Source: Acidobacteriota bacterium | Lineage (GTDB): Bacteria; Acidobacteriota; Terriglobia; Acidiferrales; UBA7541 | Direction of reading: 5' to 3' | Assembly: GCA_003223215.1 (NCBI GenBank) | Contig: QHYH01000117.1 | Span: 1-51,821 of the forward strand | DNA length: 51,821 bases | In this document: in pieces, positions 7,816 to 15,474 of the stretch | How positions within the stretch are numbered: position 1 is the stretch's first letter | Layout: the number at the start of each line of letters is the position of its first letter | The notes under the pieces: generated by a model | The model's database searches: none | What the model was told of the DNA's origin: nothing | What the model saw: only the letters and a program-made list of their open reading frames with translations | Translations under genes and position numbers: made by a program

Positions 7816-7964
7816 GAAAATCACAGAGTTACGTTAAGCGTCGACGGCCGGTGCGAGTGACCATCAGCCTTGGCCTAAACGGAAGCCGCCTATCACCTCC
7901 GGGAAAGGTTGGCGTGTGTGCTCCAGAGCGCAGCACGCGGCGTGGGTTCTCAAGGAGGAACTTC

Positions 7965-10900
7965 ATGAAAAAGAACGAGATGGGACGCCCCATCATCAAG
8001 GCATGGCTCTTGTCCTTTGCGGTGATGATAGCACTTTTCCTGTTTGCCTCAGGCTCGCTTGCCCAGTCCACTACGGATGGGGCTATCGGCGGTGTGGTAA
8101 CCGACAGCAGTGGCGCGGCTGTTCCCAACGCCAAAGTCACAGTGAAAAACCTCGGTACGAACGCCGAGGAAGTGGTTACAACGGATGAAACTGGCTATTT
8201 TCGTGTTGGCAAGGTTCAGCCTGCCACCTACTCCGTCAGTATTGAAGCGTCGGGGTTTGCCCCCTTCAAAGTGGAGCGCGTCATCGTTCAGGTGGGCTCT
8301 GTCACTGACGTCTCTGCAAAACTGAATGTCGCGGCTGCTGGCGCCACTGTTATCGTCTCTGCGGAAATTCCCCAGGTCAACACGAATTCGGCTGAGTTCG
8401 CTCCCACTGTGGATCAAACCGCCATCAGCAACCTGCCCATCAATGGCGGGCGCTGGTCCAGCTTCGTTCTCCTCACTCCTGGCGCGGTCAGTGATGCCAA
8501 CGGTTTTGGCCTGATCAGCTTTCGCGGCATGAGCACTCTTCTCAACAATAACACCGTCGATGGTGGTGATAACAATCAGGCATTCTTTTCCGAGGAGCGG
8601 GGTCGCACGCGCATTGGCTACTCCAGCGCCAAGGCCGCCGTGCAAGAATTTCAGGTTAATACTTCCAACTACTCTGCCGAGTATGGCCGCGCTGCTGGGG
8701 CAGTCGTGAATACCGTGACCAAAAGCGGCACCAATCAATACCACGGCGAAGTGTATTTTTATGATCGCGACAATTCCTGGGGCGCCATCAACCCGTTTAC
8801 CACACTTACCACGCAAACCTCGCCGGGGGTTTTCACCACTTCTCCTTACGCCCCCACCGACGTTCGCAAGATGTACGGATTCGGGCTTGGCGGACCAATC
8901 AAAAAGGACAAGATTTTTTTCTTTTTAGCCTTTGATCGCTACGACAGGAATTTCCCAGGCACCGCCAAAGCCACGAGTCCTGCCGCCTTCTTTGCTGCTC
9001 CTAGCGCCGCTACGATTAATACGCTAGCCGCACGGCTTGGCGTCACCGCTGCACAGGCCCAGGCCGACTACACCAACGGTCTCAATGGACTTCTTGGAGA
9101 ACTCGGGCCTGTGCCACGCAAAGGTCAAGCGACGATCTTCTTTCCCAAGATTGATTGGCAGATTAACTTGAAGAACCATGCCACGTTTGAAGTCAACCGC
9201 ATGCGTTGGACTTCTCCTGCCGGCATCCAAACCCAGGCCAGCAACACGTTTGGCGTCGCCAGCTTTGGGAACGATTACGTAAGGGATACTTGGGGCGTCG
9301 CCAAACTTTATACGTCTTTCACTCCCACACTCACCAATGAAGCCCGGTTCCAATATGGGCGGGATTTTGAATTTGAATTTGCGCAACCTCCTACTGCTTA
9401 CGAGCAAGCCAATTTCCTTACTTCCACGCTTTTTCCGGGCTATGCGAATCCTCTTGGCCTGCCTCCCGACGTCTTTATCACAAACGGTTTCGACATGGGC
9501 GTCCCCACATTTCTCGAGCGCCCTGCTTTTCCCGATGAACGCCGCACCCAATATGCTGACACGGTGAGCTGGTCACACAATAAGCACGCCATCAAATTCG
9601 GTTTGGATGTTGCCCATACCAACGACCTAAGCGAAAATCTGCGCTTTCAGTACGGCTCTTTTAGCTATAGCAGCTTGCTCAATTATTTCTCCGATTTTTA
9701 CAAACCCAATAGCTGCACCGCTACCATCAACAATACAGCTACGCCGGTTCCATGCTATTCGAGCTATCAACAGGCATTCGGCCCGCTCGGCTTCACCTTC
9801 AACACGAACGACCTTGCCTTCTTCGCCGAAGACAGTTGGCGCCTCTTGCCCCGCTTCACTCTGAATCTTGGCCTTCGCTACGAATACGAAATGCTGCCTA
9901 GCGTCATTCTACCCAATCCGGCGGTTCCACAAACCCAGCACATGCCCAGCGATACCAACAATCTCGGTCCTCGCATCGGTTTTGCGTGGGATGTCTTCGG
10001 CGATGGCAAGACCGCTGTTCGCGGCGGATACGGCATGTATTTCGGACGTGTCATCAACTCTACCATTTACAATGCCTTAACGAACACGGGCGTCACGGGC
10101 GGCCAGTTCTCCTTCTTCTTCACCAACACGTCCGCGAACCCGCCAAGTTTTCCGCAGATTCTCAGCACTCAACCCTCCGCATCTTCCGGCCTGAGCATCG
10201 TCTACTTCGATCCGCATTTCCAACTCCCCCAGGTCCATGAAACCGACCTGACGATCGAGCGCGAGATCGCAACCAACACGGTTGTTTCTGTCAGCTACAT
10301 GGGAAGCTTTGGTCGCAGCCTCCCGGACTTCGTCGACACGAACACCGGCCCTGCCGTCACTAGCATCAGCTACGCAGTCACCGGAGGCCCGCTCGGCGGA
10401 ACCACTTACACGACTCCCTTCTATGGAACAGCATCCACGGTGGTGAAAACTCCAACGGGCACCGTCGTTTCGAGCACCACGCAGGGCCGCCCGAACCCCA
10501 ATTTTGGGTCCATGACCGAGGTCTTCAGTGGCATCAGTTCCAATTACAATGCCCTCGCCGTTCAGATAAACCGCAGAATGTCACGCCATCTGCAGTTCAT
10601 GGGTAACTACACTTGGTCACATGCCCTCGATTTTGGTCAAAACGGCTCAACTTTCACGGATACCAACGATCTTCTGGTTCCCACCAACATCAGACTTGAG
10701 TACGGCAATTCCATCTTCAATGTGTCCAATCGCTTTGTGGTCAGTGCTGTAGGCGAGAGTCCCTGGCATGTCGGCGGGCCCCTCGGTTACGTCACGAACG
10801 ACTGGCAGCTCTCCCCGATTATCGCCGCTCAGAATGGTCTTCCCTACTCTTTAGTGACTTCCGGCACTCCTTCGAACCTCACTACTTCCAGCACTGATCC

Positions 10901-11273
10901 CGTTACCGGCAACATTACGACGATCACCTACAGACCCCTCGGCGGAGGGGTCAACGGCTCGAACGGCCGCAAGGGCATCGACGTTGTCGGCCGTAACACT
11001 TTCCGGATGCCGCGTACCGTCAACCTGGACCTGCGCCTCTCCAAGCGAGTCCGTTTCGGCGATCGTTACTCCGTTGAAGCGCTGGGTGAAGCCTTCAATC
11101 TCTTCAATCATCAAAATGTCACCGGCGTCAACAATACAGGTTACTTCGTTGGCGGTACCGCAACCGCGCCCACTCTGTCGTTTAACTCGCCGTTTGGCTC
11201 GGTGACCAACTCCAACAGCAACTTTGCCTACACGAGCCGTCAGATTCAGATTGGCTTCCGATTCTTCTTCTAA
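7965..11273 (+). CDS. Oar-like TonB-dependent receptor 1
   Basis: Outer-membrane receptor of 1102 residues. ATG 7965 is preceded by AAGGAGGA. A signal peptide (LLSFAVMIALFLFASGSLAQ) is followed by a carboxypeptidase-regulatory-like beta domain (GAIGGVVTDSSGAAVPNAKV to about residue 110), then a plug domain (ISNLPINGGRWSSF, NTVTKSGTNQYHG) and a long beta-barrel ending in aromatic IQIGFRFFF, the usual C-terminal outer-membrane signal. This architecture is expanded in Acidobacteriota and is linked to uptake of large substrates, mostly unproven. It is paralogous to the damaged receptor at 11862-14875, and both are followed by a dsrE copy. Confidence 0.92.
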   Translation: MKKNEMGRPIIKAWLLSFAVMIALFLFASGSLAQSTTDGAIGGVVTDSSGAAVPNAKVTVKNLGTNAEEVVTTDETGYFRVGKVQPATYSVSIEASGFAPFKVERVIVQVGSVTDVSAKLNVAAAGATVIVSAEIPQVNTNSAEFAPTVDQTAISNLPINGGRWSSFVLLTPGAVSDANGFGLISFRGMSTLLNNNTVDGGDNNQAFFSEERGRTRIGYSSAKAAVQEFQVNTSNYSAEYGRAAGAVVNTVTKSGTNQYHGEVYFYDRDNSWGAINPFTTLTTQTSPGVFTTSPYAPTDVRKMYGFGLGGPIKKDKIFFFLAFDRYDRNFPGTAKATSPAAFFAAPSAATINTLAARLGVTAAQAQADYTNGLNGLLGELGPVPRKGQATIFFPKIDWQINLKNHATFEVNRMRWTSPAGIQTQASNTFGVASFGNDYVRDTWGVAKLYTSFTPTLTNEARFQYGRDFEFEFAQPPTAYEQANFLTSTLFPGYANPLGLPPDVFITNGFDMGVPTFLERPAFPDERRTQYADTVSWSHNKHAIKFGLDVAHTNDLSENLRFQYGSFSYSSLLNYFSDFYKPNSCTATINNTATPVPCYSSYQQAFGPLGFTFNTNDLAFFAEDSWRLLPRFTLNLGLRYEYEMLPSVILPNPAVPQTQHMPSDTNNLGPRIGFAWDVFGDGKTAVRGGYGMYFGRVINSTIYNALTNTGVTGGQFSFFFTNTSANPPSFPQILSTQPSASSGLSIVYFDPHFQLPQVHETDLTIEREIATNTVVSVSYMGSFGRSLPDFVDTNTGPAVTSISYAVTGGPLGGTTYTTPFYGTASTVVKTPTGTVVSSTTQGRPNPNFGSMTEVFSGISSNYNALAVQINRRMSRHLQFMGNYTWSHALDFGQNGSTFTDTNDLLVPTNIRLEYGNSIFNVSNRFVVSAVGESPWHVGGPLGYVTNDWQLSPIIAAQNGLPYSLVTSGTPSNLTTSSTDPVTGNITTITYRPLGGGVNGSNGRKGIDVVGRNTFRMPRTVNLDLRLSKRVRFGDRYSVEALGEAFNLFNHQNVTGVNNTGYFVGGTATAPTLSFNSPFGSVTNSNSNFAYTSRQIQIGFRFFF

Positions 11274-11321: not shown

Positions 11322-11471
11322 TTCGCCGCGCCGTTTTTCCTGCGAAACAATGGTGCAGATAGAACAAAACTCGCGCGACGGTGTTTCCTGGCACAAGTGT
11401 TTTCCTTGACCTTTCACGGCCTTGCGTCGCAGGCCGAGCGACCAAGAACGAAACCTTTGAAGATCATGATG
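11322..11471 (+). pseudogene. Relic of the dsrE 5' region (duplicate of 14980-15129)
   Basis: 150 bases that align end to end with the leader and first ~34 codons of the intact dsrE gene. Over the last ~87 bases roughly 88% are identical by eye. The start codon is lost (an ACTC replaces ATGG and adds one base), and the homology stops exactly where repeat copy B begins. Readable residues include RCFLAQVFSL and GLASQAERPRTKPLKIMM. The copy lacks the whole catalytic half, including the UxxC region. Confidence 0.85.
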
Positions 11472-11582: not shown

Positions 11583-11861
11583 AGTCTTTGCTGAAATTGT
11601 GGAGGAGCACTGCTTCAGGAGCGACCCTCCATTGAAATTGCAGCCACGTGCCTTGTTTTCCACAGACTGCGTTTCAGCCAAAAACGATCCTGTGATAGAA
11701 AAGTTAGGCGTTGGGGTGGTGTTTGGCCTGCAGTCTTTCGCTACCCGGCCCTTGCGGCGACTCGCCTTCAACCTTCGGGAAGCCTTCCGTTTCTCCGCGG
11801 AAGATGGCGGGCCCTCGGCAAGTGCTCAAATAAACGCATGCCCAAGAAGGGAGAGATTTCG

Positions 11862-14800
11862 ATGAGAGTCAATGATCGGCAAATGCTGTTCCCTGGCCGC
11901 TTTCTCGTTTCCTTGACGAAAGGGGCGGTGCGCTCAGGCTTCGCATTGCTCCTTGCCGGCCTGTTGACGGCGTCTATGGCGTGGAGCCAGGGAAATCAGG
12001 GCACGCTCGAAGGGACGGTAGTCGATCAGTCCGGCGCGGGAGTACCCGATGCCAAACTAACGGTTACCAACAACGCCACGGGGATCAAGTTTCGCACGTC
12101 AAGTGATTCAAGCGGGCTCTTTACCATCCCCGTGCTTCCCGTCGGCACCTATACCGTTGAAGTCGAACATGCAGGCTTCGGCAAGCTGACGCAAAAGAAC
12201 CTAACCCTGACCGTCGGCGCGCAGTTGAGCCTTTCTCTAACTCTTACCCTGGCCGGACAGGTGGCGGCCGTGACGGTCACGGGCGAAACTCCCATCCTTG
12301 AGGCCACACGGAGCCAGGTTAGTTCCACGGTCAACGACACGGCCATTGAAAATCTGCCGACAAACGGACGCAACTTCATTAATTTCGTTCTGCTGACTCC
12401 TGGGGTCACGCTGGATGTCCGCGGCGGAGACATCAGCTTTGCTGGGCAGCGCGGCACCCTCAATTCCCTCATTGTCGACGGCTCAGATAACAACAACACC
12501 TTCTTCGGCCAGTCCGTCGGGCGTACTGGTTCGGGCCGCGCTCCCTATCAATTCAGCGAAGACGCCGTTCAGGAATTCCAAGTTAATTCCAACGCCTATT
12601 CCGCCGAATTGGGCCACGCCGGCGGCGCGGTCATAAACGTCGTGACCAAATCCGGTACAAACGATTTTCATGGCGCTGGCTTCGAGTTCTATCGTGACCA
12701 AAGCCTTAATGCCAACGACCCCATCAACATCATCAATAAGCGCCCCAAATCGCCCTATCACTTCAATCAATTCGGCGGCGACATCGGAGGCCCCATTCGC
12801 CGCGACAAAATGTTTTTCTTTTTTGACTATGATGGCCAGCGAAACACCCTCCCCAATCTCGTCTTCCTGGGCGTCGCCCCGCCCGCTAATCCGAGCGCGA
12901 ACCAGCAGGCGGCTCTCACTTACCTCGAAGCTCGCGTTGGCTCCTGGACGCGCACCCAGAACCAAAATGTGTACTTGGGTAAAGTGGATTGGCGGGTTAA
13001 GGACAACGCGGACCGCCATTCTCAAACCCATTCCCAACGAAACGCTGGGCGTTCTCCATTGTCAGCGTCGCTCGCGCTGGATATACGCGTGACAACGAAC
13101 CCGGCTTAGCCAACAGCATTAACCCGGAGGGCACCATCCGGGACGGCGGTATAACCGATCTTGTCGTTGGCCGCAATTTCTTCAGCCCGCGTTTCACCAA
13201 CATCCATCGCGGTGAGTTCGGGGATACCGTTTCTTTCATCCACGGCCGGCACACCATAAAAACAGGTGGAAATGCGATGGTGGACAAAATCGCCAACTTC
13301 TTTCCCGGAAACTTCTCGGGGGCGTATGTATTCAATAGCCTGGAAGGATTCGGATGCGACCTAAACGGCGGCGGTGCAGCTTGCTTTACCGGTCCGGATG
13401 CGGCCGACACCTTTACGCAGGCCTTTGCTGGAACTGGCACAACGGGTCCTGCCACAAACCCCAATCTCCAGGAATATTCCTTCTTCGGGCAGGATGAATG
13501 GCGCATGCGCAATGATCTGACGTTCAATGCTGGCCTCCGTTACGATCTCGATCTCATCGCTCAGCCCCCTACGCTCAACCCCAGTGCCAGCCTTGCAGCC
13601 GCCGGGATTTTCACCAACAGAATTCACAACGATCATGCCAACTTCGGGCCGAGAGTCGGCATCGCCTGGACGCCCATCGGCAGCAAGCTCGTGGTGCGCA
13701 CCGGCTACGGAATCTTCTACGGCCGCACTCCCGCCATCACCGTTGGCACATCATTCTCGAACAACGCCTTGAACGTGCAGACCCTGACTTTCACTGTTGC
13801 GGGTATCCCGCAATATCCGAACACCAAGTGCGGCACGCCTGTCGCGAGCCCAAGCTGTGCGGCGCCGACCGGCGGCACAAGCGGGGTCCCGACCATTTTC
13901 GTCTTCCAGCCGAATTACCACGGGCCTGATGTGCAACAGGCGAACCTGGGCTTGGAATACCAAATCCGACCCACAATGTCCGTACAGGTGAACTATCTCT
14001 GGGTGAAGGGCACGCATCTCACTCGCACGGTGGACGTCAACCAGCAAGGACCCGAAACCACGGCAACCGTCGGCTTTGTAGGCTCGACGCAGGTCGCTAC
14101 CGTGAATCAGATCACCCAGCCGCGCCCGATCGCAGGCTTCGCGCGCATTGAAGAATTCCAAAGCAGTGCCAACTCTGTCTATAACGGCTTGACCATCCAG
14201 GTGAATAAGCGCCTCTCTCACAATTATCAGCTCTTGGCTTCTTACACCTTTGGAAAGGTCATTGACGACACTCCCGACGCTACTTCCGTGGTCCCTTTCT
14301 CTTCCGACGATGCGAAGATGGTTCAAGATCCGCTGAACATTCGCGGTGACCGCGGCCCCGGCGTTAATGACCAGCGCCACCGCTTCGTCTTGAGTGCGAT
14401 CTGGGACCTCGACAGCTATGCTCACCCGCTCTCACATGGTTGGCGCTATCTGGTCGGTGGATGGCAACTCAGTGGCATTCTCACGGCGGAGACCGGCCAA
14501 CCTTACTCGCGAATGGTGAGTTCCGACTTGAACCTTGACGGCAATAGCCGGACAGACCGTGCGCCCGGCCTTGGGCGGGACACCTTTTATCTACCGAACT
14601 TTGTCTCGCTCGACCCAAGAGTCACCAAGAGCATTTCGCTTACGGAGCGTGTCAAGGCCCAGCTCATTTTGGAGGCGTACAATTCGTTAAATCACACAAA
14701 CTTTACTTCGGTCAGCAGCGCCGAATTCTCGCGGGTTGCAACTACGAGTTGTACGGGAACCGTGACCATCTGCCTGGCTCCGCCTAGGACGCCTTTCCAG

Positions 14801-14875
14801 ACACCGCTGAGCACGCAGCTGAATTTCAGCCCTGGCTCAAGAATTGTTCAGCTCTCGGGAAAAATTACGTTTTAG
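11862..14875 (+). pseudogene. Oar-like TonB-dependent receptor 2, frameshifted with probable deletion
   Basis: The first frame (from ATG 11862, with AGGGAGA upstream) gives a signal peptide, the carboxypeptidase-regulatory-like domain (GTLEGTVVDQSGAGVPDAKL) and the plug (NLPTNGRNFINF, NVVTKSGTNDFHG). It loses homology after KVDWRVKDNAD near 13010 and stops at 13107-13109. The other frame picks up receptor sequence near 13022-13080 (ARAGYTRDNEPGLANS) and stays open to 14875, ending in the barrel strand SRIVQLSGKITF. The joined length is about 1004 residues against 1102 for receptor 1, and the first barrel strands appear missing, so a deletion of tens of codons with frameshift is likely. It could also be an assembly error at this point. 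Confidence 0.82.
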
Positions 14876-15027
14876 AGAACGTTCTATTCAGTCAGACGCT
14901 CAAGCTTAAGCCGGTTGGCCTTGTGGTTCGACTGATTGCGCTGGCTGGACCATGGACGTCGTGAAGAAAAAGAGTACAGTTCGCCGCGATCATTTCCTTG
15001 GAAATCCACGCTGTAGGAGAGAACAAA

Positions 15028-15474
15028 ATGGCGCGACGACGTTTCCTGGCACAACTGTTTTCCTTGCCACTGCTCGGCCTTGCGTCGCAGTCCGAGCAAC
15101 CAAGAAAGAAATCTTTGAAGATCATGATGAAGAGCGCCTGGGGCTCCGATGATCCCACTCGGGCGGCCTTTCCCTTCATACATGGTCTCGCCTTAGCCGA
15201 TGCCGGTCATGACGTCCAGATTTTTCTTCTTGGCGAAGCCACCTATCTGATGCGCAAAGCCACGGCCGGCGCCATTGTCCCTGTAGGCTGGCCGCCGCTT
15301 ACAGAAACCCTCGGAAAAATCATCGCCAAGCACATTCCCGTCTTTGCTTGACGGGCCTGTTCCCGGGCCCGTGGGGTCACGGAGGCGGATCTAGCCGAGT
15401 GGGGCGCAAAATTCGGCAGTCCCGCCATTTTTGTGGGCCTTGTGGAATGGGCCGACCGTATCATCGTGGAATGA
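15028..15474 (+). CDS. DsrE-family protein, candidate selenoprotein (in-frame TGA = Sec108)
   Basis: A 148-residue protein if TGA 15349-15351 is decoded. ATG 15028 has TAGGAGAG upstream. The N-terminus is a twin-arginine signal (ARRRFLAQLFSLPLLGLASQ). Residues 30-107 follow the DsrE/DsrF fold pattern (KIMMKSAWGSDDPTRAAFPF, GHDVQIFLLGEATYLM, IAKHIPVFA). After the TGA the same frame continues without gap as RACSRARGVTEADLAEWGAK and then SPAIFVGLVEWADRIIVE to a TGA at 15472-15474. This family normally has CxxC at this point (CGACSRARG type); here the first Cys is the TGA, giving UxxC, the usual selenocysteine redox arrangement. Role inferred: periplasmic thiol or sulfur-transfer redox protein. 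The alternative is a pseudogene from a single Cys-to-stop change; the conserved tail argues against old decay. Confidence 0.7.
15351..15402 (+). promoter_or_regulatory. SECIS-like stem-loops downstream of the dsrE TGA
   Basis: Three foldings are visible. (a) ACGGGCC (15351-15357) pairs perfectly with GGCCCGT (15366-15372), loop TGTTCCCG. (b) UCAC (15377-15380) with GUGG (15399-15402), a GGA/GA internal loop, GGC (15384-15386) with GCC (15394-15396), and apical loop GGATCTA starting 35 bases after the TGA with G in its first positions. (c) A stem with loop GGGCCCGT starting 13 bases after the TGA. The bacterial SECIS model asks for an apical loop with an early G about 16-37 bases downstream, so (b) fits best although its apical stem is only 3 bp. 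Confidence 0.45.

Follow-up and report, generated by a model that had tools for sequence, protein, structure and literature searches.

The DsrE-like gene at positions 15028-15474 (forward strand) of the window, by which we mean the whole analyzed stretch of 51,821 nucleotides, almost certainly encodes a selenoprotein, judged from its sequence and those of its relatives. The reading that fits best is a selenoprotein of the DsrE/YchN/TusD fold with selenocysteine (Sec, U108) at the active-Cys site, to which we assign a probability of about 0.85; Sec insertion at residue 108 as such would be very nearly certain. The preliminary description had proposed a DsrE-family selenoprotein with a UxxC motif, and this main claim is supported by the Sec machinery of the genome, by the alternation of TGA, TGC and TGT at one codon among relatives, and by a conserved hairpin 3′ of the TGA.

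In-frame TGA and selenocysteine machinery

A Shine-Dalgarno-like AGGAG (15015-15019, forward strand), read directly from the sequence, precedes the ATG at 15028, and the gene specifies 148 residues with Sec at 108. The in-frame TGA at 15349-15351 (forward strand) is codon 108 and the first residue of U-R-A-C; the last residue of this motif, Cys111 (TGT, 15358-15360, forward strand), is presumed to be the resolving Cys of UxxC. Past the TGA the frame stays open for 40 codons, RACSRARGVTEADL...FVGLVEWADRIIVE, up to the stop TGA at 15472-15474. The Pfam family DsrE (PF02635) covers residues 44-147 and thereby spans the in-frame TGA (E=1e-11, over the gathering score); the same profile was matched by 72/72 proteins of the family alignment at E up to 1, while an NCBIfam search with the protein gave no family at 0.001. 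Direct reading and the Pfam match across the TGA thus bore out the coordinates, the UxxC motif and the 40-codon continuation of the preliminary description. Its expectation that a standard gene call would end prematurely was confirmed by translation with table 11, which yields a protein ending at residue 107; such calls would leave this protein and its relatives without their active site. As the gene itself terminates with TGA, this codon is also a genuine stop in this genome, and a genome-wide code change was rejected on this ground.

A complete Sec apparatus is encoded in the assembly to which the window belongs (8.8 Mb in 279 contigs). It comprises selA (568 bits), selB (354 bits, over cut-off), a tRNA-Sec with anticodon UCA (65.4 bits) and selD (351 bits), the last with an in-frame TGA of its own at the UxxK position, so that all four genes named as a check in the preliminary description are present. 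Within the set formed by this genome and 60 relatives, selA was over cut-off in 55/61. Single observations in relatives were a second selA-like copy in G047 (G047:C183) and an in-frame TGA inside the selA match of G048 (G048:C56).

A DsrE-like gene matched 11 of these 61 genomes. Near-full-length matches with one TGA were present in eight genomes and nine genes (own included), and the TGA occupied the same codon in 9/9. Seven homologues with 68-77% identity, in six other genomes of the same genus, have exactly one TGA at this codon, as has a more distant homologue (40% identity) of the same class. The remaining matches were short fragments (G000, G022, G026) and a distant Cys form without stop (G052). 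A survey of 89 genomes gave 16 full-length family matches, 12 with one TGA and four with no stop; the codon was TGT, TGC and TGC in three of the stop-free forms and unread by the pattern in L140. In wider searches (58 named loci; 396 genomes of the phylum, 64 of them matched) the codon was TGA, TGC or TGT wherever it was readable in the close family, and two distant members had TCG and an SxxS motif. All three codons that the preliminary description had named for an alignment of homologues occur in the close family, and the Cys-containing homologues at the U position support the claim that Sec stands in place of the first Cys of CxxC. After eight loci repeating genes already counted had been dropped, this TGA codon is common to 22 non-redundant genes, the window's among them, and the titles of their assemblies name several phyla. 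The Cys forms used for comparison were limited to 37 with a CSRAR-type context, distant DsrE proteins being left out.

A decayed 5′ copy of the gene lies 3.6 kb upstream, at 11358-11471 (forward strand), shortly after an intact TonB/Oar-type receptor gene (7851-11273). It corresponds to approximately the first 37 codons, is ~87% identical at the DNA level (99/114 aligned columns) and has no ATG at the aligned position, which points to a past duplication. Copies of this gene hence do decay here, as would be expected if the gene were itself a nonsense pseudogene or the product of a sequencing error, with the TGA a plain stop and the rest debris. Such an origin is nevertheless extremely unlikely, because the TGA is common to all 22 non-redundant genes and the codons beyond it are under selection at the protein as well as the RNA level. 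At the protein level, the codons 3′ of the TGA differ synonymously in 439 cases and non-synonymously in 171 (28 pairs of eight genes including the window's, summed), so that selection acts on the encoded residues.

Codon usage and hairpin 3′ of the TGA

Codons after the TGA position were compared between the 22 TGA forms (window included) and the 37 Cys forms, counting only where the residue is identical. The Ala codon is GCC in 20/22 TGA forms versus 17/37 Cys forms, the Gly codon GGG in 16/19 versus 8/29, and the Val codon GTC in 20/21 versus 11/30. The strongest difference concerned Arg, with CGT in 20/22 versus 3/37 (Fisher 1e-10, a kind of value that overstates the case since rows related by descent do not count as independent); for Arg at other positions of the TGA genes, CGT is used in 8/121. 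The exact 12-mer GCCCGTGGGGTC (GCC CGT GGG GTC) was found in 14/22 TGA forms versus 0/37 Cys forms. It is also present in rows titled Rokubacteria and Betaproteobacteria, and three Alphaproteobacteria rows have the same 12-mer except for GCG, an Ala codon, in the Gly place. Judged by these comparisons, RNA-level constraint on the codons 3′ of the UGA is confined to the genes that have it. The family thereby offers a natural SECIS experiment, in which both Sec and Cys forms largely retain Ala-Arg-Gly-Val and the codons are frozen only with UGA.

The frozen codons make up the core of a SECIS-like hairpin at 15363-15382 (forward strand), CCGGGCCC-GUG-GGGUC(A)CGG, with eight pairs and one bulged A, just 3′ of the Sec codon; in rows of the Rokubacteria type this core lacks the bulge. 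According to the available part of PMC1088965, the feature common to bacterial SECIS elements is a guanosine in a small apical loop, and the loop GUG of most TGA forms places a G in the small apical loop of a stem-loop after the UGA. The share of paired hairpin cells was 85.7% over 21 distinct TGA forms, a level reached by 0/500 shuffles, and three hairpin pairs showed changes on both sides with pairing kept. In 36 Cys forms (without L080, which has frame breaks) the share was 63.2% and was reached by 118/500 shuffles. The median energy of the isolated 20-mer was -10.4 kcal/mol in the 22 TGA rows versus -3.7 kcal/mol in 37 Cys rows (p 7e-9), the latter differing by one from the rows of the codon counts (second copy in L101 versus L090). 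The energies overlap, with weak isolated hairpins in the TGA forms L105 (-3.4), L010 (-5.1), L040 (-6.2) and L056 (-6.6). At minimum energy, the 51-nt segment of the window folded into another hairpin, starting at the UGA, and not into the conserved one (z -1.1), and RNAalifold retained only the four central pairs. With the partners slid by -1, covariation in the TGA forms scored 0.093 versus 0.112, with 6 versus 4 two-sided cells; the Cys forms scored 0.163, a value reached by only 3/500 shuffles. Covariation fails to separate the two sets, so that the case at the RNA level is carried by the frozen codons, the proportion of paired cells and the folding energies. The preliminary description had suggested looking for a SECIS element around the TGA; what emerges is a SECIS-like hairpin kept across TGA forms, although the RNA of the window itself folds differently at minimum energy. 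SelB would bind this hairpin and deliver Sec-tRNA to the UGA.

Read-through is generally known for UGA codons, and this one might be read by another route, such as near-cognate suppression with Trp, Cys or Arg, or it might be a regulatory stop with the 107-residue form as the main product; selenium-dependent termination would indeed yield both forms. We consider this very unlikely because the Sec apparatus is complete, the close family replaces Sec by no residue other than Cys, and the codons are frozen only in the TGA forms. The short form would moreover be devoid of UxxC and of the last strands of the fold.

Exchange of selenocysteine and cysteine

Across genomes, selA was over cut-off in 16/20 Sec-form versus 22/40 Cys-form genomes (p 0.09; Sec-form genomes from the 89-genome survey are left out of these counts). 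This contrast is weak, as selA is near-universal among the relatives. Four Sec-form genomes were without selA over cut-off: G397, with selB and tRNA-Sec present; G492, with tRNA-Sec and a selB fragment; and the small MAGs G488 and G490 (1.7 and 2.8 Mb), in which there was no selB over cut-off either. The tRNA-Sec match of G488 (47.5 bits) was barely above the gathering score.

A tree of 58 rows was built, leaving out L053, L079, L080, L081, L090, L093, L097, L099 and second copies as fragments or copies. The Sec/Cys label changed at least seven times on this tree, the deep part of which is unsure owing to the long branches L104 and L105. The clade of the window (support 100/97) comprises 14 Sec and four Cys rows, and the latter (L044, L048, L049, L069) are scattered among the Sec rows. 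Their isolated hairpins have energies of -3.7 to -5.1 kcal/mol, and all four genomes contain a selA match over cut-off. In the genome of L044 (G453), the front part of selA was matched apart, with an in-frame TGA inside it (G453:C14), so this copy may be broken. On the basis of these matches, at least three of these four rows probably gave up Sec while selA was retained. The family may serve as a test case for why Sec repeatedly yields to Cys in genomes seemingly able to make Sec.

A leaderless, more distant relative, L105:1483-1836 (minus strand; also L128; genome G153), has two in-frame TGA codons and reads UGAU. It is followed by a strong hairpin with the loop GGUC (z -2.75, 3/200 shuffles as low), and its genome encodes selA, selB and tRNA-Sec. 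A search for two-TGA genes in 60 genomes, including G153 and one further genome of its genus, revealed no other.

Taken together, and only as a tentative picture, a soil branch of the Acidobacteriota would carry exported selenoproteins that place a selenol of the sulfur-relay type outside the cytoplasm. According to the tree, and if Sec is ancestral, about four Sec-to-Cys switches would have occurred within one clade with selA matches kept, each switch being visible as a loss of RNA constraint, and the UGAU protein of L105 would represent a two-selenium version.

Leader, predicted fold and relation to known systems

The protein starts with a twin-arginine-like leader of approximately residues 1-29 (MARRRFLAQLFSLPLLGLA..., 15028-15114, forward strand), which has low confidence in the structure model. 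Tat signals combine an RRxFL-type n-region with a short hydrophobic stretch, and MARRRFLAQLFSLPLLGLA conforms to this pattern. Among the 35 leaders examined, restricted to the rows in which the pattern found the domain start, 29 had RR followed by a hydrophobic pair, and five Bacteroidota leaders had RK instead of RR. Of the Tat HMMs searched at E up to 1, PF10518 matched 1/72 and TIGR01409 2/72 family members, and the window protein was not reported. The Tat signal of the preliminary description is therefore upheld as a twin-arginine pattern in the leader and finds no counterpart in the HMM result for this protein. The leader might instead anchor the protein in the membrane or be an ordinary Sec signal peptide, or translation might begin at a later start and give a cytoplasmic protein like YchN or TusD. 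This is consistent with the few HMM matches, the RK leaders and the leaderless deeper Sec-form relatives (L016, L082-L085, L105), but it is made rather unlikely by the twin arginines with a hydrophobic pair in 29/35 leaders and by the Shine-Dalgarno sequence before the upstream ATG. Export of the protein is predicted with good confidence and export specifically by Tat with somewhat less; the leader would then carry the folded protein out of the cytoplasm, probably via Tat. If so, the family would allow extracytoplasmic use of selenium to be tested in soil bacteria.

An AlphaFold2 model was computed from a 72-row alignment, consisting of the window protein and 71/76 rows (left out were L009, which is the window itself, L116, L120, L121 and L123). 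Its mean pLDDT was 91.7, with ~98 from residue 31 on and ~60 for the first 20 residues. In the model, U108 ends the strand 105-108 and is followed by the helix 109-114. The best fold matches in the PDB were YchN, DsrEFH and TusBCD. A first profile retrieved no PDB sequence at E up to 0.01, and a wider one found YchN (1.1e-13) and, weakly, TusD (E 0.025). When the sequences are aligned, the U position coincides with the first Cys of the YchN CxxC motif and with the active Cys of TusD, so that the protein has the fold and the active-Cys position of a TusD/DsrE sulfurtransferase subunit. By our count, which allows for a tag in the chain, we take this TusD residue to be Cys number 78. For Allochromatium vinosum, the part of PMC3397948 available to us describes sulfur bound at DsrE-Cys78 and places the superfamily's active site at position 78 of DsrE/TusD. 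TIGR03012, the model for the TusD/DsrE subunit, did not match the window protein at E up to 1.

Thiol or persulfide redox or relay chemistry at the predicted U108 site appears fairly probable. With U108 at the end of a β-strand and C111 one helical turn further on, the two residues could form a selenenylsulfide/persulfide center for thiol redox or sulfur relay, and the selenol of U108 together with C111 would take part in thiol/disulfide or persulfide exchange outside the cytoplasm.

The flanks of the gene and of its homologues were searched over up to 4 kb, often less, for open reading frames of 90 residues or more. No conserved operon partners, including sulfur or TusD/DsrE partner genes, were found in the flanks of 58 loci and the window. 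The arrangement of TonB-type receptors upstream and MarC downstream recurs at only 1/58 other loci (L037), and both were rejected as partners. The TonB neighbor pointed out in the preliminary description consequently tells little about function. The TonB/Oar-type receptor at 11838-14875 is split, with open reading frames at 11838-13109 and 13277-14875 that do not share a frame. The accessible part of PMC13188914 includes a TonB family among the selenoproteins; as to whether the split receptor is itself a Sec gene, its two parts had no NCBIfam match and lie in different frames. In four related loci (L064, L066, L067, L078), genes resembling the DsbD N-terminal domain, TlpA and CcdA by sequence reading lie downstream of the Cys-form DsrE gene, in L066 and L067 on the opposite strand. 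A periplasmic thiol pathway is possibly encoded near these Cys-form genes.

The selenoprotein might alternatively bind metals or metalloids, for instance to capture mercury or arsenic, and have no part in redox or relay chemistry. Metal binding has been suggested for some uncharacterized selenoproteins in a 2026 review (PMC13188914, in the part available), and it would agree with the lack of a conserved sulfur gene beside the DsrE-like gene. Since the site coincides with the sulfur-bearing Cys78 of DsrE/TusD and UxxC is conserved, we regard this role as unlikely and favor thiol or persulfide chemistry.

Among known proteins, Escherichia coli YchN (1jx7) is the best PDB match in both sequence (1.1e-13) and fold (8.0e-08), and its Cys-x-x-Cys aligns with UxxC. 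It differs from the window protein in having Cys in place of Sec and an aligned chain without leader, at 18% identity. TusD/DsrE of the TusBCD and DsrEFH complexes (2d1p, 2hy5) share the fold, with U108 placed on the active Cys of TusD, but the sequence match is weak and TusD has CVAA where the window protein forms UxxC with a second Cys. The window protein also differs from TusD/DsrE by its leader and by the lack of conserved partner genes in the flanks of up to 4 kb. YedF (TIGR03527) gave weak matches in 14/72 family members. As far as the available text of PMC5322559 goes, it has a DsrE-like domain with CGxC, is tied to selenium metabolism and is not described there as a selenoprotein. Its N-terminal SirA-like domain was not found in the window protein, in which only DsrE was detected.

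DsrE-like selenoproteins have been reported repeatedly, according to the parts of the sources at hand: two sequences in the Sargasso Sea set in 2005 (PMC1088965), one among sequenced bacteria in 2006, named for Desulfovibrio vulgaris (PMC1794560), and two of DsrE 1 and 19 of DsrE 2 in the GOS data in 2008 (PMC2398784). DsrE-like UxxC proteins appear again in tables of 2022 and 2026 (PMC9312934, PMC13188914), in the latter with one Sec. For Acidobacteria, four selenoproteins in three families were counted in PMC1794560, and three are listed for Occallatibacter riparius in PMC12013277, neither paper naming the families in the accessible sections. A search of the full-text literature found no paper on selenocysteine in Acidiferrum. 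Within this literature, which most subscription papers lie outside and which was available in part, no leader and no Acidobacteria member were reported for DsrE-like selenoproteins. Compared by description only, and as far as these partial sources extend, the window gene shares with the known proteins PF02635, the U-x-x-C motif, Cys homologues and a SECIS-like hairpin; the leader and the Acidobacteria member are features not mentioned for them. DsrE-like UxxC selenoproteins have thus been known since 2005, and the present analysis adds an exported-looking branch, repeated switching between Sec and Cys, and a relative with UGAU.
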